A stretch of DNA of 64,000 nt, taken from assembly GCF_014526325.1 (NCBI RefSeq), contig NZ_JACNMJ010000001.1, positions 1,240,001 through 1,304,000 on the forward strand, read 5' to 3'. Of the stretch, positions 34,662-49,283 are shown piece by piece. The position numbers and the translations under genes were made by a program. Each line of letters starts with the position of its first letter. Position 1 is the stretch's first letter. The stretch comes from Psychroserpens algicola (GTDB taxonomy: Bacteria; Bacteroidota; Bacteroidia; Flavobacteriales; Flavobacteriaceae). The notes under the pieces are model-generated. The model had not been told where the DNA came from, did no database searches, and saw only the letters and a program-made list of their open reading frames with translations.

Positions 34662-36620
34662 ATGCAAGAAGAATTAAGACTTTCGAGTTGGTTGCCTACC
34701 ACAAACAAAGAGGTGAAAATACGCGGATGGGAAGCGCTAGACGTTATCCTGTTTAGTGGCGATGCCTATGTAGATCACCCTACGTTTGGTCCGGCAGTTA
34801 TTGGGCGTTTACTAGAAAGTATGGGCTTGCGTGTGGCGATTGTACCACAACCGAATGTCAATGATAATCTTCAGGATTTTGTAAAACTTGGTCAGCCACG
34901 CTTGTTTTTTGGTGTGACAGGCGGTTGTATGGATCCGATGATTAGCAATTATAATGCTAATAAAAAGCGTCGTGATAAAGATGCTTATACGCCTAATGGT
35001 GATATAGGTTTTAGACCTGATTATGCTTCAACGGTGTATTCTAATATTTTAAAGGAAAAATGGCCAGACACACCAGTTTTAATTGGTGGTATTGAAGGTT
35101 CCTTACGTCGTGTGACGCATTATGATTACTGGAGTGACAAGCTTATGCCAACCATTCTGGAGACGTCTAAAGCTGATATGCTGGTGTATGGAATGGGCGA
35201 ACAACCGCTTCGTGAAATTGTTCGTTTGCTGGAAAAAGGCGTGCCGTTTCAAAGTATCAATACGGTAAATCAAACGGCAGTACTTTTAGATAAACACGAT
35301 AAAATTCCGAAAAACAGCAATTGGGAAGATGTTGAAATTGCGTCTCATGAAACCTGCTTAAAGGATAAAAAGCAATACGCTTCTAATTTTAAAGTCATCG
35401 AGCAGGAATCGAATAAGCTGGCAGCGCGACGAATTTTTCAGAAAGTAGGTGATAAGACCTTGATGATTAATCCGCCCTATCCAACCATGACTGAGGCCGA
35501 AATTGATGCCTCTTTCGATTTGCCATACACGCGATTGCCGCATCCGAAATACAATAAACGAGGACCAATTCCTGCGTTTGAAATGATTAAGTTTTCTATC
35601 AACATTCATAGAGGCTGTTTTGGTGGTTGTAGCTTTTGTACGATTTCGGCACATCAGGGAAAATTTATTGCATCCCGAAGTCAGGAGTCCATTTTAAAGG
35701 AGGTTGATACGGTTGCAAATATGCCCGATTTTAAAGGTTATTTATCTGATATTGGTGGTCCGAGTGCCAACATGTATCAAATGAAAGGGAAGGTACAATC
35801 GATTTGCGATAAGTGTGTGGCGCCGAGTTGTATTTCGCCAGTAATTTGCAGTAATCTCGATACGTCTCATAAACCGCTAACCGAATTGTATCAGGCGGTT
35901 GACAGTCACCCGAAAGTAAAGAAATCGTTTATCGGTTCTGGAATTCGTCACGATATGCTGGTACCAGAATTTAATAAAAATGCCGACCCGAAAGAGCTGG
36001 ACGATTATACCGAAGAGGTGATGACCAAGCATGTGTCTGGTCGCTTGAAAGTGGCGCCAGAACATACCAGTGATCCGGTGTTAAAGCTGATGCGTAAGCC
36101 GTCGTTTACCTATTTCCATAAGTTTAAGGAGCGCTTTGATAAGATTAATATTAAGAAGGGGTTGAAACTTCAGTTGATTCCGTATTTTATTTCGAATCAT
36201 CCGGCTTGTGAAGTTGAGGATATGGCGAATCTCGCTGCCGAAACCAAAGATATGGGCTTTCAGTTAGAGCAAGTGCAAGGCTTTACACCAACACCGATGA
36301 CTGTAGCGACGGTGATTTATTATAGTGGGTATCATCCGTATACGCTTAAAAAAGTGAACACGCCAAAAACGCGTAAGGAGAAAGATGAGCAGCATCGTTT
36401 TTTCTTCTGGTATAAAGATGAAAATAAGGCGTGGATTAGAAAAACCTTAAATAAATTGGGTCGCCAGGATTTATTAGACGTTTTACTTCCTGCCAAAACC
36501 GAAAAATGGCGTAAAAATAAACCGAAAGGTGAGGCTAAAAACACCTTTAATGATGCAGTGCCTTTTAATCAGCGGAAGACGAAGGTAAAGTATAAGGGAA
36601 AGAAGAGGAAGAGGAAGTAG
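34662..36620 (+). CDS. YgiQ-family radical SAM protein
   Basis: A 652-aa protein. The N-terminal half is the UPF0313 domain (LPTTNKEVKIRGWEALDVIL, HPTFGPAVIGRLLE). The radical SAM cluster motif C-x3-C-x2-C is in HRGCFGGCSFCTISAHQGK near residue 315, and a Lys/Arg-rich tail closes the protein. Function of the family is not settled. The stop codon abuts the convergent stop of the restriction-enzyme gene (36620/36621), which marks the left edge of the defence island. Confidence 0.92.
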   Translation: MQEELRLSSWLPTTNKEVKIRGWEALDVILFSGDAYVDHPTFGPAVIGRLLESMGLRVAIVPQPNVNDNLQDFVKLGQPRLFFGVTGGCMDPMISNYNANKKRRDKDAYTPNGDIGFRPDYASTVYSNILKEKWPDTPVLIGGIEGSLRRVTHYDYWSDKLMPTILETSKADMLVYGMGEQPLREIVRLLEKGVPFQSINTVNQTAVLLDKHDKIPKNSNWEDVEIASHETCLKDKKQYASNFKVIEQESNKLAARRIFQKVGDKTLMINPPYPTMTEAEIDASFDLPYTRLPHPKYNKRGPIPAFEMIKFSINIHRGCFGGCSFCTISAHQGKFIASRSQESILKEVDTVANMPDFKGYLSDIGGPSANMYQMKGKVQSICDKCVAPSCISPVICSNLDTSHKPLTELYQAVDSHPKVKKSFIGSGIRHDMLVPEFNKNADPKELDDYTEEVMTKHVSGRLKVAPEHTSDPVLKLMRKPSFTYFHKFKERFDKINIKKGLKLQLIPYFISNHPACEVEDMANLAAETKDMGFQLEQVQGFTPTPMTVATVIYYSGYHPYTLKKVNTPKTRKEKDEQHRFFFWYKDENKAWIRKTLNKLGRQDLLDVLLPAKTEKWRKNKPKGEAKNTFNDAVPFNQRKTKVKYKGKKRKRK

Positions 36621-38018
36621 TTATAATTTTATCTTTTTTAAATAGATTTCATCCCTTACATAACTTGCATTAAACCAAAAACAATGTTTTGTGTATTCAG
36701 TCAATCCTGTCAATTTATCTGTAACAGGTAAATCATAAGTATCTGCTGCATTTCTAGCGTGAGGTCTAACGTGGCTTATTCTGTTTGCACTTTTCTTTGG
36801 AAAATAAGTTTTTCTTACTCCTTTTTTAGTTACTTCTTTTACGATTTCTCCACTTAAAACTGTCTTTACCATTTCTTGCCAAACTTTTTTTGCTTCAACA
36901 ATATCAGAGTAGGGCATATTCCAAAACTTCACTTTTCTTAAAATCAGATTTTCTCCCTCAAATTGATAAAACACGAAGAAAAACTTACTTTCCAAAATGT
37001 TCTTAAAATCTGAATCTTCCCAATCTGTCTCTACAAGTTCTTGATATTCAAATGTTGGAAATGAAATATCTTCTTTTGGTAGATTATTTTCTTTAAGTCG
37101 GATAGTTTTTACTTGAATATCGGCTTTTTCAAATTCCTCAATTTTTTGACCGAGTTGAAGTCCAAGGATTGCATTTGTAAGATTTGCAAAATAGCTTTTT
37201 GCATTTTGATTTAATTCTAAACCCAACTCTTTCTCTATTTGTCCTGCTGATTTGCCATAAAATGGATGAAATTTTAAAATTACTATTTCCTCAATTGAGC
37301 GAACTTTGTCTAAAATTTCAGGTCGTTCAATTATTTTTCCATAAACTGCAGTTTCTTCTTGAGCAATGTTTGCAATTATGTGATTTACATATCCTTGTTT
37401 TAAAGAATATGCTCTTTGTTTTGCTTGTTCTTTATTAAACGGTTGGTCTCTAAACGATTTTAGAGCAGTTGAACCTTTTGTACAAGCTCCAAGATAGAAT
37501 GTGTCTCCTTCTGATAATTCGTGAGCTTTTCCGTCTTTAATTTTTTGATTTATTAATTCCCAATCTTGTTTAATAATTTTTAAGTCTTCATTGGGATATT
37601 GCCAGCCTTGAACTAATTTTATTATGTAATCAAGTAAATCTAAATCTCTATCGTGAAGATAAAATACCAAAAGTAAATGTGCGTTTTTCTTCCAAAACGA
37701 ACTTGTTTCAAATTCTTCTTTATGAACTTCTAAATAGTTGATAATGTTTAAGACCAGCCTTTCTTTTGAACGATATTCTCCGTTTTTGAGAGTCTTTAAA
37801 GGACTTGTTTTTAATTCAAGACCAGCTTCCAAAAAATCAGGTTCTGCATCAGAATTTGGTTCGTAACCAAAATAGAATTTCTCTAATATTTGACCAAAAT
37901 TTCCTTTTCCTTTATAACCGTGTTTTTCTATTTCTGAACCACAAGCTTGTCTTAAAGTTTGGTTTTTAAGTTGTTTTGCAAATTCAATAATTGAATCAGC
38001 CGAAGTTATATCAAGCAT
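36621..38018 (-). CDS. Sau3AI-type type II restriction endonuclease
   Basis: A 465-aa endonuclease built of two MutH-like domains, as in Sau3AI. In the N-terminal domain the MutH catalytic set is visible: E46, D61 and E68-x-K70 in EPDFLEAGLELKTSP, with the MutH spacing D-x6-E-x-K. GACTKGSTALKSF and AKQRAYSLKQGYV follow near 180-210. In the C-terminal domain the equivalent site reads ADIQVKTIRL (about 299-308), with Gln for the catalytic Glu, so it is a pseudo-nuclease that probably binds DNA, as known for Sau3AI. Expected target GATC. The ATG overlaps the stop of the methyltransferase gene by 8 bp; an upstream TTG was not used. Confidence 0.92.
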   Translation of the reverse strand: MLDITSADSIIEFAKQLKNQTLRQACGSEIEKHGYKGKGNFGQILEKFYFGYEPNSDAEPDFLEAGLELKTSPLKTLKNGEYRSKERLVLNIINYLEVHKEEFETSSFWKKNAHLLLVFYLHDRDLDLLDYIIKLVQGWQYPNEDLKIIKQDWELINQKIKDGKAHELSEGDTFYLGACTKGSTALKSFRDQPFNKEQAKQRAYSLKQGYVNHIIANIAQEETAVYGKIIERPEILDKVRSIEEIVILKFHPFYGKSAGQIEKELGLELNQNAKSYFANLTNAILGLQLGQKIEEFEKADIQVKTIRLKENNLPKEDISFPTFEYQELVETDWEDSDFKNILESKFFFVFYQFEGENLILRKVKFWNMPYSDIVEAKKVWQEMVKTVLSGEIVKEVTKKGVRKTYFPKKSANRISHVRPHARNAADTYDLPVTDKLTGLTEYTKHCFWFNASYVRDEIYLKKIKL

Positions 38019-39258
38019 ATTCAAATTGGTTTATCTGTTTATAAAGTTCTTCTCCAATTTTTTCAATTACTCCAACAACTAAAGCATTTCCCATAAAAAA
38101 CGCTCGTTTTGTATCTGTAATCCCCTCCAATTTGGTATGATTATCTGGAAACATATTTAACCTTTCTAACTCTATTGGCGTTAATCTTCTCAAACCTCTA
38201 TCAGAAACAATTACGTGCTTAAATCTTGAAGGTGATTTTCCACCTTCTCCTGTTATAATTGTTCTTGAAGCATTGTCTAAAGCATCTGGATAAATCATTC
38301 CACCTTCTGAATATTTGTAAACAAAACCATCTGGTGATTTTCGTTCAATGGTTTTTGCTCCTTTTAAATATTCCCATTTTTCTTTATCTTTTTCATCAAT
38401 GAAAAATTCAGGTGTTACTTCTCCATTTTGCAATACATCTGCTAAAACGGTTTTCTTTCCATCATAATTTGGTTCTGTTTTGGTAGTATAAACTTTACCT
38501 TTAATTAATAAACCCGTATTTTGAAAAGGCGACAACTTTCCGTTTTTATTAAAATTGTTAGTTATTTCTACTAAATCTCCTTTTAATTCTAATTCTTGAA
38601 TTGAATTTGTTTTAGCAACAGGAAAAGCGTTTGCAATAGTTCCTTCTTCTGTTAGCCAATTTGTTTTATTTGATTTTTGAAGTCTTTTGTAAATTTCTGT
38701 TGATTTATGATAGCCGATAAAGAAAACCCTACGTCTTCTTTGTGGCATTCCGTATTCAGCTGCATTTATAACACGCCATTCTACAGCATAACCTAAATCA
38801 TTTAAGCTTTGAAGCATAACTGCAAAATCTCGACCTCTTTGTTTTGCAGGAGATTTTAAAAGTCGATCAACATTTTCTAAAAACAAGTATTTAGGTTTGT
38901 TCTTCTTGTTTTCTAAAATTTTATGAATTGACCACCATAAAACGCCTTTTTTACCTTTTAGGCCTTTAGAATTATGTAATGTAGTGGCAACAGAATAATC
39001 TTGACAAGGAAATCCACCAACCAATAAATCGTGATCCGGAATTTCCTCTACATTTCTTGTTACAACTTCATTTATGTCTTCGTTTGAGTGATTTTCCTTA
39101 CCAAAACGAGCTTCATAAACTTTAGAAGCGTGTTGCATTTTGGTTGAAGGTTCCCATTGATTGCTCCAAACAATTTCGTAGTTACTTCTTTCAAGTCCAA
39201 GACGAAATCCACCAACTCCAGCAAATAATTCTGCAACTTTCATTATCTTATTTTTCAT
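38011..39258 (-). CDS. DNA (cytosine-5) methyltransferase
   Basis: A 415-aa C5 methyltransferase. Motif I is LFAGVGGFRLGLE; motif IV with catalytic C85 is GGFPCQDYSV; motif VI is FLENVDRLL; motif VIII is QRRRRVFFIGY; motifs IX-X are RLTPIELERLNMFP and GNALVVGVIEKI. The target-recognition region lies between about 195 and 330. It should protect host DNA against the Sau3AI-like partner by methylating C in GATC. Its first ATG overlaps the end of the controller gene by 11 bp; a second at 39243 is possible. Order on the strand is controller, methylase, endonuclease. Confidence 0.95.
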   Translation of the reverse strand: MKNKIMKVAELFAGVGGFRLGLERSNYEIVWSNQWEPSTKMQHASKVYEARFGKENHSNEDINEVVTRNVEEIPDHDLLVGGFPCQDYSVATTLHNSKGLKGKKGVLWWSIHKILENKKNKPKYLFLENVDRLLKSPAKQRGRDFAVMLQSLNDLGYAVEWRVINAAEYGMPQRRRRVFFIGYHKSTEIYKRLQKSNKTNWLTEEGTIANAFPVAKTNSIQELELKGDLVEITNNFNKNGKLSPFQNTGLLIKGKVYTTKTEPNYDGKKTVLADVLQNGEVTPEFFIDEKDKEKWEYLKGAKTIERKSPDGFVYKYSEGGMIYPDALDNASRTIITGEGGKSPSRFKHVIVSDRGLRRLTPIELERLNMFPDNHTKLEGITDTKRAFFMGNALVVGVIEKIGEELYKQINQFEYA

Positions 39259-39556
39259 TTTCTTGAGCTTTATAATATTTAATTTTTTCTTCTGCCACTT
39301 TCAGTATTTCGGAAGTAGATTCCGTATATTTTAGTTCGTCTGCAATTTTTTCCGAGTACCAATTTATTATTAATTCACTTTCGGGAAGTCCATAAAAATT
39401 GGCGAGTCTTACGATTTGTTCCATTGTCGGTTTTCTTTCGTTTTTCTCGAATTTGCTTATCAGAGATTGGTCAATATCTACTTTAGCCGCAACTTTTCGA
39501 AGTATCAATTCTTTTTCCTCTCTGGCACATTTTAGAGTGTCGCCTAGTGTTTTCAT
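39248..39556 (-). CDS. XRE-family controller protein of the restriction system
   Basis: A 102-aa protein starting MKTLGDTLKCAREEKEL, with a helix-turn-helix at 5-60 (LRKVAAKVDIDQSLISKFEK) and a helical tail (about 65-102). It is the first gene of the restriction-modification operon and fits a C-protein that times methylase and endonuclease expression. The start at 39556 is preferred because the only upstream in-frame start (TTG, 39589) lies inside the -7 box. Half-sites GGACAA/TTGTCC between -7 box and ATG suggest autorepression. Confidence 0.88.
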   Translation of the reverse strand: MKTLGDTLKCAREEKELILRKVAAKVDIDQSLISKFEKNERKPTMEQIVRLANFYGLPESELIINWYSEKIADELKYTESTSEILKVAEEKIKYYKAQENEK

Positions 39557-39557
39557 T

Positions 39558-39594
39558 GGACAAATTAATTTTAGACAATAATTGTCCAAATATA
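39558..39594 (-). promoter_or_regulatory. Promoter and operator of the restriction-modification operon
   Basis: -7 box TATATTTG (minus strand, 39587-39594), directly followed by the perfect palindrome GACAATTATTGTC (39574-39586) and a further TTGTCC half-site (39558-39563) touching the start codon. Sites downstream of the -7 box would block transcription when occupied. Confidence 0.55.
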
Positions 39595-39738
39595 TGTATA
39601 TATATTTAATTTATTAAGGTTAGTGATAAAATATTTATTCAATGGATTATTTAAAAAGATATTCTAGCCTTATTTGGTAGTAAAAGTAAATAAAGAATAT
39701 TCTTTGGTGGTCAATTTAAATTAACTTTAAATAGTTTA

Positions 39739-39746
39739 TATTTTTG
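39739..39746 (+). promoter_or_regulatory. -7 box of the MutH-like/NurA-like operon
   Basis: TATTTTTG, 36 nt upstream of the ATG at 39783. A TTG start at 39744 lies within this box and is therefore rejected. Confidence 0.45.
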
Positions 39747-39782
39747 AACAAACACTTAACTTTAAGAATACTGCTAAATTAT

Positions 39783-40523
39783 ATGGGTCACACAGCTAAT
39801 ATTATAATTAACGAAATCTATAATCTACTAAGAGAAAAAACTATAAAAGATATAATTGATTTAGAAACCGATAATATTTATAATAAATCTGCAGTATCAG
39901 TAATAATAAAAAGATACATAGATAAAAATTCAATATATAATTTAGATGTATTAAAAGATTATAAAATTGTTGTGAAGTTTATTCCGGTTGATTTAAAATA
40001 TAATTGTTTTGAAGCAATGTCATTTTCTTCTACATCATTATATAATATTCTCTTTGAGAATTGGGATAGCCCAGATGTTTTAGAAAGAGCCTCATTGAGA
40101 AATCAATTAAATTTTAATTATCTTTTTATTCCAATAGTAAAAATTAAAATAAAAGGTGTTTATAATAATTACTATGATTGGGAAATTGGTGATTTTACTT
40201 TTTGGGAGCCAACTAGGAATGAATTAAATTTGATTAGCGCAGAATGGAATCAAGTTAAAGAAGTAATAAAGAACGGTGTAGTCTTGAGAAAAGTTAAATA
40301 TGGAAAATCATTTAGGACAACTAATAATTTACCTAAACAATCGAAAACTAATTTTATACATTTAAGACCACATGCTAAGAATAGTTTTGATTACGATATA
40401 CCATATTTGAAGTATACAAATGGGGCTGTTGAAATAACTAAGCAATCCTTTTGGTTAAATAAAAAATTTATTAATCAGTTATTAGAAAAGTACAAATGGA
40501 AAAAGATTTTAAAGGAAGAGTGA
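39783..40523 (+). CDS. Stand-alone homologue of the Sau3AI C-terminal (pseudo-MutH) domain
   Basis: A 246-aa protein that aligns along its length with the C-terminal domain of the neighbouring Sau3AI-like enzyme. The closest match is FIHLRPHAKNSFDYDIP and EITKQSFWLNKKF (about 191-229) against ISHVRPHARNAADTYDLP and EYTKHCFWFN. Earlier, DYKIVVKFIPVD corresponds to ADIQVKTIRL; the catalytic Glu is replaced (Val), so it should not cut DNA. I infer a DNA-binding protein, perhaps for GATC or a related site. The next gene, NurA-like, overlaps its 3' end by 28 bp. Very AT-rich codon use unlike the flanking housekeeping genes. Confidence 0.7.
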   Translation: MGHTANIIINEIYNLLREKTIKDIIDLETDNIYNKSAVSVIIKRYIDKNSIYNLDVLKDYKIVVKFIPVDLKYNCFEAMSFSSTSLYNILFENWDSPDVLERASLRNQLNFNYLFIPIVKIKIKGVYNNYYDWEIGDFTFWEPTRNELNLISAEWNQVKEVIKNGVVLRKVKYGKSFRTTNNLPKQSKTNFIHLRPHAKNSFDYDIPYLKYTNGAVEITKQSFWLNKKFINQLLEKYKWKKILKEE

Positions 40524-41506
40524 TTTTTTCTGACAATTATAAAACTACTATTGATTCAATAAAATTAATTAATAAATCGTTTACGAGCCGTGCTAAAATA
40601 GTTAAGTCTAGTGCAGAGTCATTTGATCTTTCTGATAGTTCTGACATTAGAGTAATTGAAGGTTATGAAAATGTTACTCAAATATTATCAGAAAATTTAA
40701 AACAAGCAGAGATTTTATGTGCTTATGATGAATCTATTTTAGAACTTAATTCTTTAGAGGGGAAAGTAAGATGTACTGTCCATAATTCAGTAATACAAAA
40801 TAATGAAGAATATATTCCTGCAGCTTATGTTACTTTAAAATTTTTCACTAAATCTAATCTGATTTCTGGAAAAGCAACAGAATTTTCAGATATAATTAGA
40901 ACCGATGACGTAGCTGTAGATTTAGCAAAGGAATATGTTAAAGAACGAGCATACTTTTTATCTAAAGCTGCTCCATCTAATTCTTTGATTTTTATAGATG
41001 GTTCAATGTTTTCTGGTGCTTCAACTAATGGCAACTTTTTATTAATAGATTACTTGCTTTCAAAGGACTGTAGACCTGTTTTTTTTGTAAAGAATAGTGA
41101 GAGTACAATTATAACAGAACGATTTGATTTTGCTAACGGATATAATTCTGATTTACATTGGGCATATGTAAATCTTAAACCAGGTAATGTTTCACCTGTA
41201 TTTGCATATACCTCTAAAGAAGGAAGAAGTAAAGCAATGTGCTTTATGAAAGTTTTCGATAACAGAAGTCCAGTGCGAATAGAATTCCCTTTAAAAGCCT
41301 TTGAAGAAGGCTGGTATGGTGATGAGGTGTTTGATTTTATCTATTATCAATATCTAGCTAATGGAAGCTCTAATAACGTTCAGCCAAGAATTATTCAAGT
41401 TTCCGAAATGTATGCTAGAGAAATATTGAAATCAACAAATCTATATAAGGAAATTGAAAGAATGGGATTAACAAAAAGTATGAATGAGGAAAGAGATATG
41501 TATTAG
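40496..41506 (+). CDS. NurA-like nuclease
   Basis: A 336-aa protein with the NurA pattern. D168 in FIDGSMFSG matches the metal-binding DGS, E150 lies 18 residues before it (KEYVKERAYFL), as in NurA, and an earlier AYDESI (D78) fits the first acidic site. The C-terminal region FMKVFDNRSPVRIEFP and VSEMYAREIL matches the conserved end of the family. NurA is a Mn-dependent 5'-3' nuclease that works with HerA on DNA ends. A HerA-type ATPase is encoded 3 kb away in the convergent operon, which supports the call. The stop codon overlaps that of the convergent gene by 4 bp. Confidence 0.65.
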   Translation: MEKDFKGRVIFSDNYKTTIDSIKLINKSFTSRAKIVKSSAESFDLSDSSDIRVIEGYENVTQILSENLKQAEILCAYDESILELNSLEGKVRCTVHNSVIQNNEEYIPAAYVTLKFFTKSNLISGKATEFSDIIRTDDVAVDLAKEYVKERAYFLSKAAPSNSLIFIDGSMFSGASTNGNFLLIDYLLSKDCRPVFFVKNSESTIITERFDFANGYNSDLHWAYVNLKPGNVSPVFAYTSKEGRSKAMCFMKVFDNRSPVRIEFPLKAFEEGWYGDEVFDFIYYQYLANGSSNNVQPRIIQVSEMYAREILKSTNLYKEIERMGLTKSMNEERDMY

Positions 41507-42369
41507 CCCATTAATTCCTCTATAATATATTTATTAATTAAAGCAGGCATTTCTCCTAAATCACTAGATATTTTAAAAGAAAGATCTTTTAAAACATTAT
41601 AAAATATTTCATTAGCTATAAGCCGTTGTTCACCTTTGTAATTATCTAAAATTAAATCTAATAAGTATTTTGCATTTTTTCTTTTGCTTAAATCTAAATA
41701 ATATTGATAAGATCCTTTTTTAAAATATAATGAGGTTTTAGGTAAGTCGACATTATTTGTAATAAATTTTCTGAAAACAGAGTCTTTGCCAGTTGTCCAT
41801 CCTACTTTTTTACCTAAACTAATATCTTTTTCTTCCATTTCTTTTTCTATAGAAATAAAAAATTTATGATAATTGTTTAGTTTTTTTGTTGATAAACCTT
41901 CTGTATTAAAGCTATTCTCAAAATTATCTGCACCAAAAAGCACTAAGAAAACGCACCAGATTTTTTCTTGAGTTTTTAGTGATAATTCCTTTCCTAGTTT
42001 AAAGTTATTAGTGTCAAATGCTTTGAACACTTCCTGAATATTATAATTTTTAATTGAATATAGCTTAAACATTCCATTGGCGCCTATAAAGACTTTATCA
42101 TTATTTATTAAGTTTCCTTTTATGATATAATTGGATTTAAAACATTGATCGATAAGTTCTCTAGTAAAAAGGTATTTTAATTCATCCATTGAAATGGAAC
42201 CTTCTAGCATTAATTTGTTTAAATCATTATTGTTTTTTTTCAAAAACATCAAAGTTTTAAAAACATCTATTCCTTCACTATTTTCAAAATGGTAAATTTC
42301 TTTTGTTTTTAAATTTTCTTTAAATGCAGAGCTAAGACTATTGAATAATTTAACTAATAATTCTTCCAT
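41503..42369 (-). CDS. Unrecognised protein of the HerA cassette
   Basis: A 288-aa Lys/Asn/Leu-rich, mostly helical protein without signal peptide or membrane helix. I recognise no domain. Its ATG overlaps the stop codon of the Rad50-like gene (TAATG), so it is translationally coupled and very likely works with it. It is the last gene of the minus-strand operon and overlaps the NurA-like gene tail to tail by 4 bp. It could be a structural or regulatory subunit of the complex; no catalytic motif is visible. Confidence 0.6.
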   Translation of the reverse strand: MEELLVKLFNSLSSAFKENLKTKEIYHFENSEGIDVFKTLMFLKKNNNDLNKLMLEGSISMDELKYLFTRELIDQCFKSNYIIKGNLINNDKVFIGANGMFKLYSIKNYNIQEVFKAFDTNNFKLGKELSLKTQEKIWCVFLVLFGADNFENSFNTEGLSTKKLNNYHKFFISIEKEMEEKDISLGKKVGWTTGKDSVFRKFITNNVDLPKTSLYFKKGSYQYYLDLSKRKNAKYLLDLILDNYKGEQRLIANEIFYNVLKDLSFKISSDLGEMPALINKYIIEELMG

Positions 42370-44552
42370 TAATATTCTATAATTTTAATACCATTTGAAT
42401 TTGGTCTAGTAAATACAGCTAAAACTAACCTATTTTGATTTTCAAGTTTTTTAATTGATTCAATTACTGTATTCAATGCTCCTTGAGCCATGTTTCCGAT
42501 TTCGTCAAGTAAAACAACGATATATTTACCTTCAACATTTTCTATTCTTTGTTTCAAATAATTAGCACTAGCTAATCCAGTTGACACATCATCTTTTTTT
42601 ATAATGATATCTTTTTCGCAATGGAATTCTTGTTTAATCATGTCATAAAATTTTAATTGAACAAATCGACCATCAGCTCTTAATAATTTGTTGTCCATAG
42701 AGTGTGCTATTATTTTACCAGCTAATTCTATGAAATTTACATCTTCAATTGCTGTAAACTTAGACAGGTTACCGGTTTCTATTTCAGAGATTAATTCACC
42801 ATAGGGACCTAGGTTTGCATTGATTCTAGTTAGCATAAGTAAAAAATTCTTTATTTTGTTTTTTTGGATATCATTATATCTTGATGGTTTTTTTGCTTTT
42901 TCCATCCCTAGCGACCTTTCTTTTAATCTATAGTCTGAGTCTAAATCATTTAATCTATCATGTAAATCTCTTAATTTTTTTAAAATATCCGTTTTAGATG
43001 AGCCTAAATTTTCCATCAATTGTGGATTTGCAATTTTAGTTTTAGCGTTATATTGTAATGCAGATATTTTATCGAGAGAATCAAACCTACTTAAATCTGA
43101 TATTTGTAGGTCATTAGCACAAGTTGCACAGGTTAAATCGAAGCTATTTTTAACTGATTTTAATGTCTGTTTTAGTTCTTTTAACTCAGCTTCAGATTTA
43201 TAATAAGTACTATCATCATCGTTAACAAGTTTCTTTTTGTTTTCTTTATTAAGTTGAGTCTTAATCCTCATAAATTGGCTGATATAACCTTTGATAGGTT
43301 TTAAATCTAATTTTAAAAATGATTTCAAGGATTCATAATTTTTCACTTTATGTTCATTAATAATAGATTCAAGACTTCGCTTTAGTTTTTTCGAGTCAAC
43401 TGAAGTAGCGTTCTTCAGAAAATGATCTATTTCATTTGCCATTAACTTTTCTAGTAAATCAATTAAATCTTTATACGAGTTGTGAATTATATAAGCTTTA
43501 TCATTCTTTTTTTCCGAAATAAATCGAAGTATTGTGTCTTTGATGTACTCAATACTTTCGCTGAATTTATTTTGCATTTCAACGTAATCTACTCTTTGAA
43601 AAATATCATTAATTTCAGTTTCTTTAATCAAATCATAATGCCGTACGTTGATTTCGTTATCAACAATTAATTTTTCTAATTCGGAATCGCTATTGATTTC
43701 TGAGATTAACTTATATATTTTTTCTTTAAAATTCTTCTCTAAAACTGCTAATTCATTGTTTAACTCTTTAATTTTTAATTCATCTTTTTTTTCTATTTTA
43801 GACGGTTTTTTTAGGAGCTTAAATGCTTTTTGTTTTTTTAATATTTTAGATTCTAGTTCCAATTGTTTTTTACAATATAGACTTAGATTATTTAGATTGT
43901 TATATCTTTCTAATTCAGTTAATATAGATTGCTTGGATTTAATTCTTTTTTCAATATTTTTTATTTTCTCTTTGATTTCCTCAGTATCTTTTTCTAACTT
44001 TTTAATTTTATCATCATTTCTAACACTATCAAATTCTTTTGAAATATCACTAAAATATTTTGCTATTTTAATAATTTTTACTCTTAACTTATCATTCCAA
44101 ACACTTAAGTCTTTTATTACTGCGTTTAATCTTTCACTTGGATTTGTTGGAACATCATAAATAACAGTGAGGTCTTTATGTAAAATTTTATAATTAATTG
44201 GAGCTCCTTGGTCTATCTGAATTATTTTACCTCTTCCTTTTATTTTGGATAGAGATAGCTCTTTATTGTCTGGTAATTTTAAATTAATTTTATAATTTAA
44301 TTTATAAGAGGCTTCATCATCGTAACGGGATATAGCATCTTTAATAGATTTTAAAATTCTTTCGTCATCAAGTTTGTCAGCTTCTAAGGCATAAGCTAAT
44401 AGATTTAGAACAAATGTTTTACCGTAGCTATTGTCTGCTGTAATCTCAAAAATCCTCTTTTTTGAATTTACAATTGGTTGAATGAACTCTTCTCGAGGAT
44501 TATAGGTTTTTTTCTCACCTAATATTTCTAATGTGTAATCAATATTATTCAT
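42369..44552 (-). CDS. Rad50/SbcC-like SMC-type ATPase
   Basis: A 727-aa protein with SMC/Rad50 design. An N-terminal ATPase half holds Walker A ADNSYGKT (39-46). Long coiled coils (about 180-300 and 350-580, Lys/Glu-rich heptads) enclose a hook CATC (C475, C478) that could bind zinc as a half-site, and the C-terminal half has Walker B IVVLLDEIGNM (about 680). The signature region STGLASANYLKQ is degenerate compared with LSGGQ. It is shorter than SbcC. Stop and start overlap with both neighbours (8 bp with the 57-aa gene, TAATG with the 288-aa gene). A role in sensing or bridging DNA ends is inferred. Confidence 0.75.
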   Translation of the reverse strand: MNNIDYTLEILGEKKTYNPREEFIQPIVNSKKRIFEITADNSYGKTFVLNLLAYALEADKLDDERILKSIKDAISRYDDEASYKLNYKINLKLPDNKELSLSKIKGRGKIIQIDQGAPINYKILHKDLTVIYDVPTNPSERLNAVIKDLSVWNDKLRVKIIKIAKYFSDISKEFDSVRNDDKIKKLEKDTEEIKEKIKNIEKRIKSKQSILTELERYNNLNNLSLYCKKQLELESKILKKQKAFKLLKKPSKIEKKDELKIKELNNELAVLEKNFKEKIYKLISEINSDSELEKLIVDNEINVRHYDLIKETEINDIFQRVDYVEMQNKFSESIEYIKDTILRFISEKKNDKAYIIHNSYKDLIDLLEKLMANEIDHFLKNATSVDSKKLKRSLESIINEHKVKNYESLKSFLKLDLKPIKGYISQFMRIKTQLNKENKKKLVNDDDSTYYKSEAELKELKQTLKSVKNSFDLTCATCANDLQISDLSRFDSLDKISALQYNAKTKIANPQLMENLGSSKTDILKKLRDLHDRLNDLDSDYRLKERSLGMEKAKKPSRYNDIQKNKIKNFLLMLTRINANLGPYGELISEIETGNLSKFTAIEDVNFIELAGKIIAHSMDNKLLRADGRFVQLKFYDMIKQEFHCEKDIIIKKDDVSTGLASANYLKQRIENVEGKYIVVLLDEIGNMAQGALNTVIESIKKLENQNRLVLAVFTRPNSNGIKIIEY

Positions 44553-44718
44553 TACTAGTTAACTTGTCTAGAATTTCTTCCGCATTTATATTTTCTATGT
44601 CTGCTAAAAAAATTTCTTTTATTAATTTTAAAGTTAGTTCATCATCTGAAATTTCTTCAAGGTCATATTTAAAAAGTTCAATCAGTTCTTTTCTATATTT
44701 ATCTTCTTTATCTATCAT
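44545..44718 (-). CDS. Small acidic protein of the HerA cassette (57 aa)
   Basis: A 57-aa, strongly charged helical protein (MIDKEDKYRKELIELFKYD, then LEEISDDELTLKLIKEIF). The ATG overlaps the HerA stop by the pattern ATGA, and its end overlaps the Rad50-like start by 8 bp, so it is wedged between them in a coupled operon. Amino-acid composition suggests a helical bundle or adaptor between the two ATPases. A longer frame from 44790 is rejected since it would lie mostly inside the HerA gene. Confidence 0.6.
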   Translation of the reverse strand: MIDKEDKYRKELIELFKYDLEEISDDELTLKLIKEIFLADIENINAEEILDKLTSNE

Positions 44719-46319
44719 AATACTCCTGATTTTGAGAGTGGAAATTTTGCTAATTTTAATTGGGGTAATCCATGGATATTTGTGACGCAATATCCAGCTT
44801 TCATTGACTGTATGTCATCTGGGCTAATACCATTAGTTTTTTTGTTAATCTCATCAGTTTTAAACATAAATTTTGTGTTAATTACTGATGTTAGGCCGTT
44901 TGGAATGTCATTAATATTTTGTGAAGAAAAAACTACCCCTATTTTTTTACTCCTACCAATCCTACAAATAGTATCTAAATCTCCTAACGCATTTCTAGAT
45001 GCAGATGATTTGTAAAATTGATGGACTTCATCTATAATTATCAGAATAGGTATATCATTATTGTTTTCAGTCTTTTCAACTACTATTCTATTTAATAAAT
45101 ATCTTAAAACTATAGAGCCGAATTCTATGCTTCGCGCTACATCTATTACTGTCATTTTACCTTCCTGTAAAATCGAATCAGCATCTATTTCATTTCCTTT
45201 CTCATTTTCAAAATATTTATTAGCATTTTTCAATCTAGATATCATAGCATTTGCTGTACCTGGGTTTAATCTAGTAGTTCCATCTCTTTCTGCTACATCT
45301 CTTGTGTTGAAGTTATAATCTTGCTCTTTACAATCCTCTAAAAAATCTAAAAATTGAGAAAAACTTCCATTAGGGTAGTTTCTCTGCCAATATCTAAAAA
45401 CATCAGGAAGAGCTTGGGTTGCTAATTCTGTTAAATTTTCTACTATTCCAAGTAAAGACTCTGGGTCAATTTTACTAGCATTAAGTGTTATTGGTGTGCA
45501 TAAATCTTCGCTAACCCCTTGAGAAATTAAATTATTTAAATTTTCATGAGCACTATATAGAATCTCGTAATTTTGAATGCCTTTAGGTTCAAAGTTTAAT
45601 GAAGTCCACTCTCTCTTCGCTTCCATATTGCTGGTTTGAGTTTGTTTATCCATATTAAGGAAATCTACATCCTTAACGTTGATAGCTAAAACACAACCAT
45701 ATCGATTAATTTCATCAGCTGTAATCTTATTCTCAATAAAATGTTGTGCCAAATATTTGGTGGCAACAGTTTTTCCTGACCCTGTTTTTCCAGTTATTTG
45801 TATTTGATGCCAGTAGACATCTTCAGGAATTTTTAGTTTTACAGGTTGGCCATTCACATCATTTATTTTTTGACATCTTGAGGTGTGAACCGTTGCAGGA
45901 AATAAGAATGGACCATTATTGTTTCCTGCATCTGTTGCTTTTAATATTTCTTCTTCAGTAGAAAGTCTTGCAAGAGCTTGAGGTTTAATATAATCAACCA
46001 ATCCATCTTCTCTTTGAGTAATATCGTAAACTCTATGAGCAGTAATTTGATTTTTGCATTCCCTATCTGCTTCTTGTAGACCTAAGTTTAAATCAGCAAG
46101 AAGGGGGCTAGGTGAATATATAGACGTTTGCTCACTTTCTTCAACTCTGAGGACAAATTTCCTTTTGTCTTCTGTGTCTCTGTTGTTATCCTCTAAATCT
46201 CCCTTGAGTGTCATATCTACTGTTAGATAGCTTCCCTTTGGTAATAGCCCAGAATTAGAATTCTTTTTTGATGTTAGGACAATTTTTCCTGATTTTTCAT
46301 ACAATACAATCCAATTCAT
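44715..46319 (-). CDS. HerA-type hexameric DNA translocase
   Basis: A 534-aa HerA/FtsK-superfamily ATPase. An N-terminal beta-rich domain (1-120) is followed by Walker A ITGKTGSGKT (about 174-183), Walker B ILIIIDEVHQF (about 422-432), then CRIGRSKKIGVVFSSQNINDIP, which holds the arginine finger and the sensor Gln. HerA proteins form hexameric rings that push DNA into a partner nuclease such as NurA. It is the first gene of the minus-strand operon, before the 57-aa, Rad50-like and 288-aa genes. A weak -7 box (TATCTTTA, 46360-46367) lies 40 nt upstream. Confidence 0.88.
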   Translation of the reverse strand: MNWIVLYEKSGKIVLTSKKNSNSGLLPKGSYLTVDMTLKGDLEDNNRDTEDKRKFVLRVEESEQTSIYSPSPLLADLNLGLQEADRECKNQITAHRVYDITQREDGLVDYIKPQALARLSTEEEILKATDAGNNNGPFLFPATVHTSRCQKINDVNGQPVKLKIPEDVYWHQIQITGKTGSGKTVATKYLAQHFIENKITADEINRYGCVLAINVKDVDFLNMDKQTQTSNMEAKREWTSLNFEPKGIQNYEILYSAHENLNNLISQGVSEDLCTPITLNASKIDPESLLGIVENLTELATQALPDVFRYWQRNYPNGSFSQFLDFLEDCKEQDYNFNTRDVAERDGTTRLNPGTANAMISRLKNANKYFENEKGNEIDADSILQEGKMTVIDVARSIEFGSIVLRYLLNRIVVEKTENNNDIPILIIIDEVHQFYKSSASRNALGDLDTICRIGRSKKIGVVFSSQNINDIPNGLTSVINTKFMFKTDEINKKTNGISPDDIQSMKAGYCVTNIHGLPQLKLAKFPLSKSGVL

Positions 46320-46436
46320 ATTTTTTTAGAAGTTTTTTGTTATAATGTTTTATTTATTTTAAAGATAGAAATAATAGTTAAATTAACTTTCTTTAAAATG
46401 GATTCAAAAAAGGAATTTTTATAAGTTAAATGTCTC

Positions 46437-49283
46437 CTAATGCGCCTCCAACCAATTATCACCAATATCTAAATCGACATCTAAAGGCACCTCTAATTTG
46501 TAGGCATTTTCCATTTCGGTTTTGATAATGGTTTTCATGGTCACGAGTTCGGGTTTGTAGATGTCAAATACCAGTTCATCATGGACTTGCAGCAACATTT
46601 TTGATTTATAATCGCCTGCCTGGAGCTGTTTATGAATATTAATCATCGCAATTTTGATGATATCGGCAGCGCTTCCCTGGATTGGTGCATTCACAGCATT
46701 TCGTTCGGCAGCACCACGAACCACAGCATTTCGCGAATTGATGTCTTTTAAATAACGACGCCTGCCTAAAACGGTTTGTACATACCCATGGTCTCGCGCA
46801 AAATCAACCTGCTCATGAATATAACTACGTAGCTTCGGATAGGTTTCATAATAGGTGTCGATGAGTTCTTTAGATTCACTACGCGATAAATTGGTTTGAT
46901 TGCTTAAACCAAAGGCAGACACGCCATAAATGATTCCGAAGTTGACGGTTTTGGCATTGCTTCGTTGCTCGCGAGTGACTTCAGAAATAGGCACGTTAAA
47001 CACTTTTGAAGCCGTCGACGCGTGAATATCTTCCCCATTTTTAAAGGCTTCAATCATGGTTTCTTCCTGACTTAAGGCTGCGATGATTCGGAGTTCTATC
47101 TGCGAATAATCGGCAGCGAGTAAGGTGTACTCGTCGTTTCTCGGAATAAAAGCTTTTCGAACCTGACGACCACGTTCGGTACGTATCGGAATGTTTTGTA
47201 AATTCGGATTGTTACTACTCAGTCGTCCCGTTGCAGCAACCGTTTGCATATAATCGGTATGTACACGTCCTGTGTGTGCTTCAATCTGTAAAGGCAAGGC
47301 ATCGACATAGGTGCTTTTTAATTTTGACAAGCCTCTGTAGTCTAAAATTTGCTGAATGATTGCATGCTCCTTTGCCAAATAACTCAGTACATCTTCTGCG
47401 GTTGAATATTGTCCGGTTTTAGTTTTTTTAGGCTTATCGACCAGTTTTAATTTTTCAAATAAAATAACACCCAATTGCTTTGGTGAGGCGATATTAAATT
47501 CTTCGCCAGCAGCTTCATAAATACTTTTTTCAAGGTTGGTAATATCTGTATTGAGTTGCTCTGATAATGAATGTAGAAAATCCTGATCCAGATTGATACC
47601 TTCCAGTTCCATCGTCGCTAAGACACGAAGCAACGGAATTTCAATCTCGTCAAACAATTTTTGGGTATTGGCCTCACCGAGTTCTTTTTCGAAATGCTCT
47701 TTTAATTGAAGTGTAATATCGGCATCTTCAACGGCGTATTCGGTTTGTTTTTCTAAGGGAACCTCACGCATCGACAGTTGGTTTTTGCCTTTTTTTCCTA
47801 AGAGTTCGGTAATTGAAATCGGTGTGTAATTGAGATAAGTTTCAGAAAGCACATCCATATTATGTCGCATATCTGGATTGATGAGGTAATGCGCTAACAT
47901 GGTGTCAAAGAGTTTGCCTCTGACTTCAATATTGTATTTAGCGAGGACTTTAATATCATACTTTAAATTCTGACCAATTTTTTCGATGGCTTCATTTTCA
48001 AAAAATGGTCGCAGGATTTCTATGAGTTCTTGCGCAGCCTCTTTGTCCTCCGGAAATGGAACATAAAAGCCTTTTCCGGCTTCCCATGAAAAGGCGATAC
48101 CAACGAGTTCAGCTGTGAGCGGATTAAGCCCTGTAGTTTCGGTATCAAAACACACCGATGTTTGATTCATCAGGTTACTGACAAACAATTTGGTTGCCAT
48201 TCCTGGTGCGATACTCTGGTAAAAATGAGCGGTGTTTTCAGCCGTTTTACGAGTATATTCTGAAGCAGTTTCAGGAGTTGCCGAAGCATCACCTCCAAAC
48301 AATGAAAATTGTCCGGCTCCAGCCGATTGTTGTTCTTTTGGTGTGGCTTTTGACTTGGTTTCAGTTTGAGAGCTTGTCGTGGTTGCAGCATCAGGAACTT
48401 CAGTAGCAAATGTTTTTAAGAAATTATCGGTTAGACGTCTAAATTCTAAATCGGTAAAAATTTGCTTGACTTTTTCAACATCAGGATGATCGAGTTCAAA
48501 ATCTTTCGCATTAAATGTCACAGGAACATCCAGCATAATGGTTGCCAGTTTTTTTGAAAGTAAACCAAGTTCGCCATTGGCTTCAACTTTTTCTTTCATT
48601 TTTCCTTTAAGCTGGTCGGTATTGGCTAATAAGCCTTCCATACTTCCAAATTGAGCGATGAATTTTTTAGCCGTTTTTTCACCAACACCTGGAAGTCCCG
48701 GAATATTATCACTTGAGTCGCCCATCATGCCTAAAAAATCAATGACTTGCATGGGATCGGTCACTTCAAATTTCTTCTGTACTTCAGGAATACCCCAAGT
48801 TTCGTAGCCACCACCAAAAACAGGTCTGTACATAAAAATGTTTTCGGTAACGAGTTGCGCAAAATCTTTATCGGGAGTAACCATATAGGTTTTATAGCCT
48901 TCTTTTTCGGCTTGACGCGACAAGGTGCCAATCACATCATCGGCTTCGTAACCTTCTTTGACCATGATTGGAATGTGCATAGCTTTAAGAATTTCACATA
49001 TATACGGAATTGCAGTTTTAATGCCTTCTGGAGTTTCATCACGATTGGCCTTGTAGGCTTCAAACATTTCGACGCGGTCTGCGCTTCCACCTTTATCAAA
49101 ACAAACGGCTAAATGATCTGGTCGCTCACGTTTGATGACATCGAGCAAGGAGTTCATAAAGCCCATAATGGCTGAAGTATCTTCGCCTTTGGAATTGATT
49201 CTCGGGTTTTTTATAAAAGCGTAATACCCACGGAAAATAAGGGCGTAGGCATCGACAAGAAATAAGCGTTTTTGATCTGACAT
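46437..49283 (-). CDS. polA: DNA polymerase I
   Basis: A 948-aa polymerase with three domains. The 5'-3' exonuclease (1-290) has FLVDAYALIFRGYYAF and GYEADDVIGTL. The 3'-5' exonuclease (about 370-560) has intact acidic residues (CFDTETTGLNP). The polymerase has motif A LLAADYSQIELRIIA, motif B RSNAKTVNFGIIYGVSAFG and motif C LLQVHDELVFD. A low-complexity linker near 295-330 (KSKATPKEQQSAGAG) joins the first two. The active proofreading domain distinguishes it from Taq-like forms. It marks the right border of the defence island. Confidence 0.97.
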   Translation of the reverse strand: MSDQKRLFLVDAYALIFRGYYAFIKNPRINSKGEDTSAIMGFMNSLLDVIKRERPDHLAVCFDKGGSADRVEMFEAYKANRDETPEGIKTAIPYICEILKAMHIPIMVKEGYEADDVIGTLSRQAEKEGYKTYMVTPDKDFAQLVTENIFMYRPVFGGGYETWGIPEVQKKFEVTDPMQVIDFLGMMGDSSDNIPGLPGVGEKTAKKFIAQFGSMEGLLANTDQLKGKMKEKVEANGELGLLSKKLATIMLDVPVTFNAKDFELDHPDVEKVKQIFTDLEFRRLTDNFLKTFATEVPDAATTTSSQTETKSKATPKEQQSAGAGQFSLFGGDASATPETASEYTRKTAENTAHFYQSIAPGMATKLFVSNLMNQTSVCFDTETTGLNPLTAELVGIAFSWEAGKGFYVPFPEDKEAAQELIEILRPFFENEAIEKIGQNLKYDIKVLAKYNIEVRGKLFDTMLAHYLINPDMRHNMDVLSETYLNYTPISITELLGKKGKNQLSMREVPLEKQTEYAVEDADITLQLKEHFEKELGEANTQKLFDEIEIPLLRVLATMELEGINLDQDFLHSLSEQLNTDITNLEKSIYEAAGEEFNIASPKQLGVILFEKLKLVDKPKKTKTGQYSTAEDVLSYLAKEHAIIQQILDYRGLSKLKSTYVDALPLQIEAHTGRVHTDYMQTVAATGRLSSNNPNLQNIPIRTERGRQVRKAFIPRNDEYTLLAADYSQIELRIIAALSQEETMIEAFKNGEDIHASTASKVFNVPISEVTREQRSNAKTVNFGIIYGVSAFGLSNQTNLSRSESKELIDTYYETYPKLRSYIHEQVDFARDHGYVQTVLGRRRYLKDINSRNAVVRGAAERNAVNAPIQGSAADIIKIAMINIHKQLQAGDYKSKMLLQVHDELVFDIYKPELVTMKTIIKTEMENAYKLEVPLDVDLDIGDNWLEAH

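Follow-up and report, generated by a model that had tools for sequence, protein, structure and literature searches.

According to the available part of its text, HerA-DUF4297 is an anti-phage complex that cleaves double-stranded DNA (dsDNA; PMC11291478). HerA-NurA of T. kodakarensis digests dsDNA, is reportedly unable to make recombination overhangs and has been proposed to act against viruses, while the role of such pairs, DNA repair or antiviral defence, is currently debated (PMC12977600, as far as its available part goes). In the 'capture' models of HerA/FtsK systems, as presented in the accessible passages of PMC10853773 and PMC12839542, invader DNA is pumped to a nuclease; the words NurA, MutH and Sau3AI are absent from PMC10853773. 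Here we describe a nine-gene block of Psychroserpens algicola, located in a stretch of 64,000 nucleotides (contig NZ_JACNMJ010000001.1, positions 1,240,001 to 1,304,000; hereafter the window). It links a probable HerA-NurA pair with a DNA methylase and with a putative site reader derived from a restriction enzyme, which makes the question of repair or defence directly testable. We give an even chance to the reading that all nine genes belong to a single restriction system whose two arms rely on one shared self-mark.

The block lies between a gene for a YgiQ-like radical-SAM protein (34662-36620) and polA (46437-49283), flank names that were assigned from sequence. A Sau3AI-family restriction enzyme, a C5-cytosine DNA methyltransferase (C5-methylase) and a helix-turn-helix (HTH) regulator are encoded on the minus strand, and this group diverges from one gap of ~193 bp with the plus-strand genes of pMutH, a stand-alone relative of the Sau3AI C-terminal half, and of a NurA-like nuclease. 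The latter two genes stand tail-to-tail with those of P288, an SMC/ABC-like ATPase, a 57-amino-acid (aa) protein and HerA, all on the minus strand. An initial annotation had proposed only the six genes from pMutH to HerA as a defence cassette. All six open reading frames (ORFs) are real, the stops of nurA and P288 do overlap by 4 bp (41503-41506), and the remaining joints overlap by 1, 4, 8 and 28 bp, the last being that of pMutH and nurA. As had been noted, the cassette is more AT-rich than its surroundings (GC 0.24-0.32 over the six genes versus about 0.39-0.42 in both flanking genes), and the YgiQ-like gene and polA indeed place the block between two housekeeping genes.

To find relatives, one genome per species was scanned in 84,980 species, a search that detects close relatives only. 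It gave 49 stretches matching a peptide pattern, two of which encode a relative: Winogradskyella psychrotolerans D3R19 (L002) and Olleya namhaensis DSM 28881 (L003). In all three copies the genes for HTH, methylase, pMutH, NurA, P288, ABC, small protein and HerA follow each other in identical order, with polA after HerA; the six genes proposed as a unit thus recur together in two other genera. The Sau3AI gene, however, is found in two of the three copies only (window and L002) and is absent from Olleya, where an unrelated 325-aa protein adjoins the methylase at its place (L003:5637-6614). Consequently, the six-gene boundary was right as to its genes but not as to its extent, since HTH and C5-methylase (38011-39589) accompany the six genes in every copy. 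Likewise, the description 'beside a restriction-modification system' holds for the adjacency and understates the relation, as HTH and C5-methylase stay and the restriction enzyme is exchanged. A constant methylase beside a changing type II nuclease is as expected of a methylase that works for the six-gene module as well, and is suggestive of such sharing.

The six genes look constrained as proteins: the ratio of nonsynonymous to synonymous substitution rates (dN/dS, method NG86) is 0.043-0.228 over 16 of the 26 gene pairs analysed (57-aa gene one pair), values that are rough because most pairs are close to saturation in dS. Among the six, conservation is highest for NurA and HerA and lowest for ABC, P288, pMutH and the 57-aa protein. 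This ranking of NurA and HerA against ABC, P288 and pMutH also holds between L002 and L003, where dS is high throughout and identity amounts to 66.7% for pMutH, 62.7% for P288 and 59.1% for ABC versus 90.1% for NurA and 82.3% for HerA. One might expect such a contrast if the faster proteins were recognition parts and the slower ones executioner parts. Low dS was found for NurA (0.35) and HerA (0.44) between window and L002 and for pMutH (0.59) between window and L003, while the other 23 of 26 pairs reach at least 0.91. The mixture suggests recombination within the block, and the high identity of NurA and HerA between window and L002 is thus partly due to recent exchange. The block is rare: searches returned already known genomes only, with ABC in 1 of 149 family genomes, with the NurA and HerA profiles in 1 of 395 phylum genomes each, and with the HerA profile in 1 of 397 family genomes and in 1 of 68 and 1 of 10 genomes of the genera of L002 and L003. 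Plasmid searches (ABC, HerA, NurA, P288) and viral-contig searches (NurA, HerA, ABC) gave no match.

The 3' side of polA was read in ten genomes of the same genus, about 14 kb each (L089-L098), and the nine-gene block is absent from all of them. In three, polA and the YgiQ-like gene lie <100 bp apart and the slot is empty (L090, L092, L098); the other seven hold different cargo (Table 1), four of them with other C5-methylases, which a tblastn search with the methylase of the window detected at 28-33% identity. Ten slot ORFs were scanned by Pfam, two of which had no match. By its gene content the slot flanked by polA and the YgiQ-like gene (window 36620-46437) is, in this genus, a hotspot of restriction and defence genes, which bears out the defence-type location initially claimed for the AT-rich block.

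A survey of PF09376 in the phylum gave 40 matches in 38 of 345 genomes, 36 of which were kept after four under the cut-off had been dropped (G283, G320, G392, G295). Five of these 36 NurA loci have a HerA neighbour, and all five adjoin DNA methylase or type I restriction-modification (RM) genes, as judged by Pfam in L045, L050 and L051 and by similarity to the L051 methylase in L052 and L059; the latter two are of one genus, so the five represent four genera. Of the 31 NurAs without such a HerA, only one has an ORF with a crude methylase motif no more than three genes away (Fisher p 1.6e-5, ignoring relatedness). Distant HerA neighbours and methylases could be missed, since the former were sought with two seeds of a single HerA type and the latter in part by a short motif; the NurA seed search finds only the HerA-paired type and missed the 31 others, whose positions come from the PF09376 survey. 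Taken alone, the L045 NurA scores 20.9 bits (cut-off 21). Among five HerA-NurA pairs on plasmids, two have an annotated adjoining DNA methylase (Halorarius, Deferribacter). The HerA and NurA subfamilies of survey and plasmids are not close to those of the window.

We read the six genes as a restriction arm because HTH and methylase are always included, the order of eight genes is the same in three of three loci, and Sau3AI is replaced while methylase and pMutH stay. The same reading draws on the gene overlap of pMutH and nurA and on the missing D..E.K motif of pMutH, on the identity contrast between L002 and L003, on the cargo of the polA slot with its C5-methylase systems and helicases, on the methylase or type I RM genes beside all HerA-paired NurAs of the survey, and on a Lactiplantibacillus plantarum locus with a stand-alone MutH/Sau3AI-type protein. 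Precedents are the anti-phage HerA-DUF4297 complex (PMC11291478) and the dsDNA-degrading HerA-NurA of T. kodakarensis (PMC12977600). In such a system the C5-methylase would mark host sites, presumably GATC. One arm would be the ordinary, exchangeable type II nuclease. In the other, ATP-driven arm, pMutH, a Sau3AI-type half devoid of the nuclease motif, would read unmethylated sites, and the SMC/ABC-like ATPase, P288 and the acidic 57-aa protein, perhaps in one complex, might act as a DNA-bridging sensor or loader that loads or licenses a HerA ring with NurA, which would pump dsDNA and degrade it processively. Site specificity, sensitivity to methylation and an effect on phages are presumed. 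More tentatively, at somewhat below an even chance, we propose that a dead site-reading half of a type II enzyme targets a HerA-NurA/SMC shredder, that one methylase guards against two nucleases, and that the type II enzyme is swappable while the motor arm stays. If true, a type II enzyme domain would have found a second use in addressing a motor-driven nuclease, the adjacency of HerA-NurA pairs and DNA methylases would find a reason, and a motor-driven way to destroy foreign DNA would be at hand.

Table 1. Features of the nine-gene block (window coordinates) and cargo of the corresponding slot beside polA in seven genomes of the same genus.
Feature	Position	Strand	Evidence or content
Sau3AI-family type II restriction enzyme	36621..38024	-	NCBIfam Sau3AI 550.6 bits, cut-off 300
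C5-cytosine DNA methyltransferase, predicted self-marking enzyme	38011..39258	-	PF00145 6.8e-71
HTH (Xre-type) regulator, divergent from pMutH	39248..39589	-	HTH_19 9.1e-12; conserved in 3/3 loci
Inverted repeat TTTAGACAAT-A-ATTGTCCAAA, candidate operator	39570..39590	.	just upstream of likely HTH start
pMutH, 246 aa, stand-alone relative of Sau3AI C-terminal half; predicted target-site reader	39783..40523	+	NCBIfam, PDB
NurA-like nuclease (probable), 336 aa	40496..41506	+	PF09376
P288, 288 aa, isoelectric point 8.7	41503..42369	-	no family above cut-off
SMC/ABC-like ATPase, 727 aa	42369..44552	-	Walker-A-like ADNSYGKT 39, STG signature-like 657, Walker B VVLLDE 679
57-aa acidic protein, net charge -10, fast evolving	44545..44718	-	present in 3/3 loci, acidic in all
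HerA/FtsK-family DNA translocase, 534 aa	44715..46319	-	Pfam, PADLOC and PDB matches; Walker A 177, Walker B 426
Slot L089			PLD-ResIII-DUF3427 helicase; PolA 99% identical to that of the window
Slot L091			C5-methylase, AAA/STAND, DUF2357-PDDEXK_7
Slot L093			1123-aa ORF, not scanned
Slot L094			Schlafen-group helicase
Slot L095			Eco47II enzyme, C5-methylase
Slot L096			ORFs of same size and place as L095, not scanned; YgiQ-like gene outside stretch
Slot L097			C5-methylase, HATPase protein, HNH

The pMutH gene starts with ATG, with an in-frame TTG at 39744. Its product matches the NCBIfam Sau3AI model at 3.8e-21 and 75.5 bits (cut-off 300) over model positions 256-474 of 475 only, and Sau3AI 2reu in PDB at 1e-10, the solved Sau3AI chains being matched over their C-terminal part. 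A D..E.K motif stands at residue 59 in the N-half of the neighbouring Sau3AI enzyme; the MutH D..E.K motif was not found in pMutH at the position matching Sau3AI. Thus a full-length Sau3AI enzyme was rejected (score, C-half match and absent catalytic motif), and the initial view of a pseudo-MutH with a Sau3AI-related recognition domain is supported, DNA binding being predicted. The stretch 36621-39589 fits a Sau3AI type II RM system, with a match to the Sau3AI equivalog model above its cut-off and a PF00145 C5-methylase; the latter, 85-90% identical across the three loci, also matches DrmMII and DruM in PADLOC, as C5-methylases do. For the HTH regulator the true start is probably the ATG at 39556. 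The arms of the inverted repeat are 90% complementary, the repeat is one of 18 inverted pairs listed for the AT-rich stretch, and GACAAT...GTCCAAA is preserved in all three loci.

GATC is the site of the Sau3AI family. Compared with a synonymous-codon shuffle (400 shuffles, none as low for each six-gene set), GATC occurs 5 times in the six genes versus 18.2 expected, 6 versus 17.6 in L002 and 4 versus 16.6 in L003 without the small gene. The flanking polA and YgiQ-like genes have 8 versus 17.9, and slot cargo has 0 versus 7.1 (L089), 0 versus 4.8 (L094) and 5 versus 10.7 (L091), while L097 (12 versus 15.6) and L045 (28 versus 24.2) are not clearly depleted. Depletion in block, flanks and some cargo would fit a lineage that commonly meets restriction at GATC. 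A separate observation concerns CATG, which is absent from the three RM genes (36621-39589) versus 7.2 expected by synonymous shuffle (0/400 as low).

The HerA identity of the 534-aa protein, as initially annotated, is firm by profile comparison: DUF87 (1.7e-7), HerA_C (3.9e-7) and AAA_10 (2.3e-8) are all matched above the Pfam cut-off, the best PADLOC models are mad8 (2.7e-13) and HerA (1.4e-12), and a solved HerA is matched in PDB (8xau, 5.1e-5). P-loop matches to BrxF (0.015) and PtuA (0.0056) in PADLOC are marginal. MADS was rejected, as mad8 is matched only partially, by HerA, and no other mad genes occur among the nine (PADLOC). For the 336-aa protein PF09376 is matched at E 8.9e-5 and 22.5 bits (cut-off 21) over model positions 82-218 of 254 only, and by all three homologues at E up to 1 (best E 3.3e-5); a six-frame PF09376 run over the whole genome at E 0.01 did not report it. 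By eye, DES at residue 78 and DGS at 168 are seen at the places where NurA family members have DGS and DGT. We regard it as a probable NurA.

In the 727-aa protein the Walker-A-like motif lies near the N-terminus and the signature-like motif and Walker B lie near the C-terminus, which is the layout of SMC/Rad50 ABC ATPases, and these motifs are conserved in all three homologues. No Pfam match above the cut-off (best DUF885, E 0.38) and no PADLOC or PDB relative was found, and a CxxC 'hook' (C475-C478) is present in window and L002 but absent in Olleya. Rad50 with a CxxC hook, as first proposed, is thus not supported, and the protein is assigned as SMC/ABC-like from motifs only. P288, which shares 85 and 63% identity with its copies in the two other genera, matched no family above the cut-off in Pfam, PADLOC or NCBIfam, in line with its initial description, and the best PDB match (E 0.032) is not credible. 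Structure models of both proteins, built from three sequences each, are unusable, with a predicted local distance difference test (pLDDT) of 42 for the ATPase and 39 for P288. The 57-aa protein, scanned in PADLOC as an 81-aa form, had no family match above the cut-off. An identity as DndFGH, BREX, Lamassu, Wadjet or ABC-3C was rejected: PADLOC gave no match for ABC-like, P288 and the small protein, and Pfam no component models.

Several results weigh against one system with two arms. The middle part of C5-methylases usually reads the target site, and residues 185-320 of the methylase are its least conserved part (76-82% versus 82-96% identity elsewhere), so that a constant target site is not established. 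Constant linkage of the methylase over three copies could stem from shared ancestry or plain proximity. The depletion of GATC was rejected as evidence specific to the block, as flanking genes and unrelated slot cargo are depleted too. No profile or usable structure backs ABC-like or P288. With the NurA-like protein, a PDB profile search found no NurA up to E 10, hhalign against 15 of the surveyed NurAs gave a probability of 5.5, and a hidden Markov model of these 15 scored it no better than shuffles, the query profiles being thin (three near-identical sequences). Of the initially claimed NurA match, the PF09376 hit in all three homologues stands, while these comparisons lend it no support. Finally, three of the five plasmid HerA-NurA pairs, all cyanobacterial, have no annotated methylase adjoining.

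The cyanobacterial pairs, whose seven adjoining ORFs also show no methylase motif, would suit two separate neighbours, namely an ordinary Sau3AI RM system and a methylation-independent SMC/ABC-HerA-NurA module that senses DNA ends or aberrant structure and degrades the DNA concerned, with pMutH as an accessory clamp. SMC-like ATPases often sense DNA structure or ends, and the two gene groups diverge from one gap. However, methylase and HTH are retained in all three copies, unlike the type II nuclease, and pMutH, whose gene overlaps nurA, is kin to a portion of the restriction enzyme; we regard such a division as rather unlikely. A role in repair, in which HerA-NurA and the SMC-like ATPase would resect breaks such as the adjacent enzyme's cuts when methylation lapses, has a precedent in archaeal and Deinococcus HerA-NurA, which the available parts of PMC9960219 and PMC12977600 describe as end resection enzymes. 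It appears improbable for a block that is very rare and patchy, forms AT-rich cargo in a defence hotspot and, as the initial annotation had remarked, lacks Mre11, no such domain being found in a profile scan of the nine genes. The HerA/FtsK capture model (PMC10853773, PMC12839542, in their accessible passages) might also point to a system against plasmids or integration that senses entry or replication of mobile elements, with pMutH targeting a subset of sites, but no Orc/Cdc6, DndG-like or PglZ partner model was above the cut-off among the nine genes, and we consider this very unlikely.

Besides the block itself, some related loci deserve mention. The Olleya 325-aa protein at L003:5637-6614 perhaps represents a new restriction enzyme family: it has a GIY-YIG match below the cut-off (E 0.028), no PADLOC match at 0.01, no credible PDB match (best E 0.94) and no plasmid relative, and the Olleya genome holds no second match to pMutH/Sau3AI. 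An independent cassette from a further member of the window's bacterial family, L045:5020-14146, encodes an N6/N4 methylase, HerA, a NurA-like protein, an AAA_15/AAA_21 ATPase, an HNH protein and a 538-aa protein of no recognised kind. In the Deferribacter methylase-HerA-NurA locus (L103:6710-13183) an IS200/TnpB element separates the HerA (DUF87) ORF from another ATP-binding ORF. A Lactiplantibacillus plasmid (L012:2070-9320, CP096858.1) carries a 247-aa MutH/Sau3AI-type protein that stands alone, together with a C5-methylase, a ParB-like protein, a PLD-SNF2 helicase and Vsr, and an Exiguobacterium plasmid protein (L014:6755-8146) joins a Sau3AI-C-like N-terminal part to a long remainder of no recognised kind and adjoins further such genes.

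Among the matches listed in the open-licence literature, a scope outside which most subscription papers fall, the combination of these genes is not described. With HerA-DUF4297 (PMC11291478) and Sir2-HerA it shares the coupling of HerA to an effector enzyme, whereas those systems, as far as the available text goes, have another effector, two genes only and no methylase or site-reading protein. HerA/FtsK capture, DndFGH and BREX-related capture systems (PMC10853773, PMC12839542, in the parts available) share the general concept of a HerA/FtsK pump that feeds invader DNA to a nuclease, but their other components are not above the cut-off here. As in archaeal and Deinococcus end processing, a HerA translocase stands with a NurA-family nuclease; here, in contrast, Mre11 and a profile-detectable Rad50 are missing, the subfamilies are divergent (HerA 534 aa, NurA 336 aa), the setting is a mobile hotspot, and a methylase and a predicted site-reading domain are added. 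HerA-NurA also adjoins a DNA methylase in L045, L051, L052, L059, L102 and L103, in L045 together with an AAA_15/AAA_21 ATPase and HNH, yet with other HerA and NurA subfamilies and, where Pfam was run (L045, L051), an N6_N4 methylase; pMutH was not found in L045, L051 or L052. The L. plantarum plasmid resembles the block, at family level only, in its stand-alone MutH/Sau3AI-type protein, and further in its C5-methylase and ATPase, with PLD-SNF2 helicase, ParB-like protein and Vsr in place of HerA-NurA-ABC. The Sau3AI-type RM system (NCBIfam NF040973), finally, corresponds to the adjacent enzyme, methylase and HTH, and its C-terminal half is kin to pMutH, which here, unlike there, stands alone, lacks a nuclease motif and has HerA, NurA and an SMC/ABC-like ATPase as its partners.

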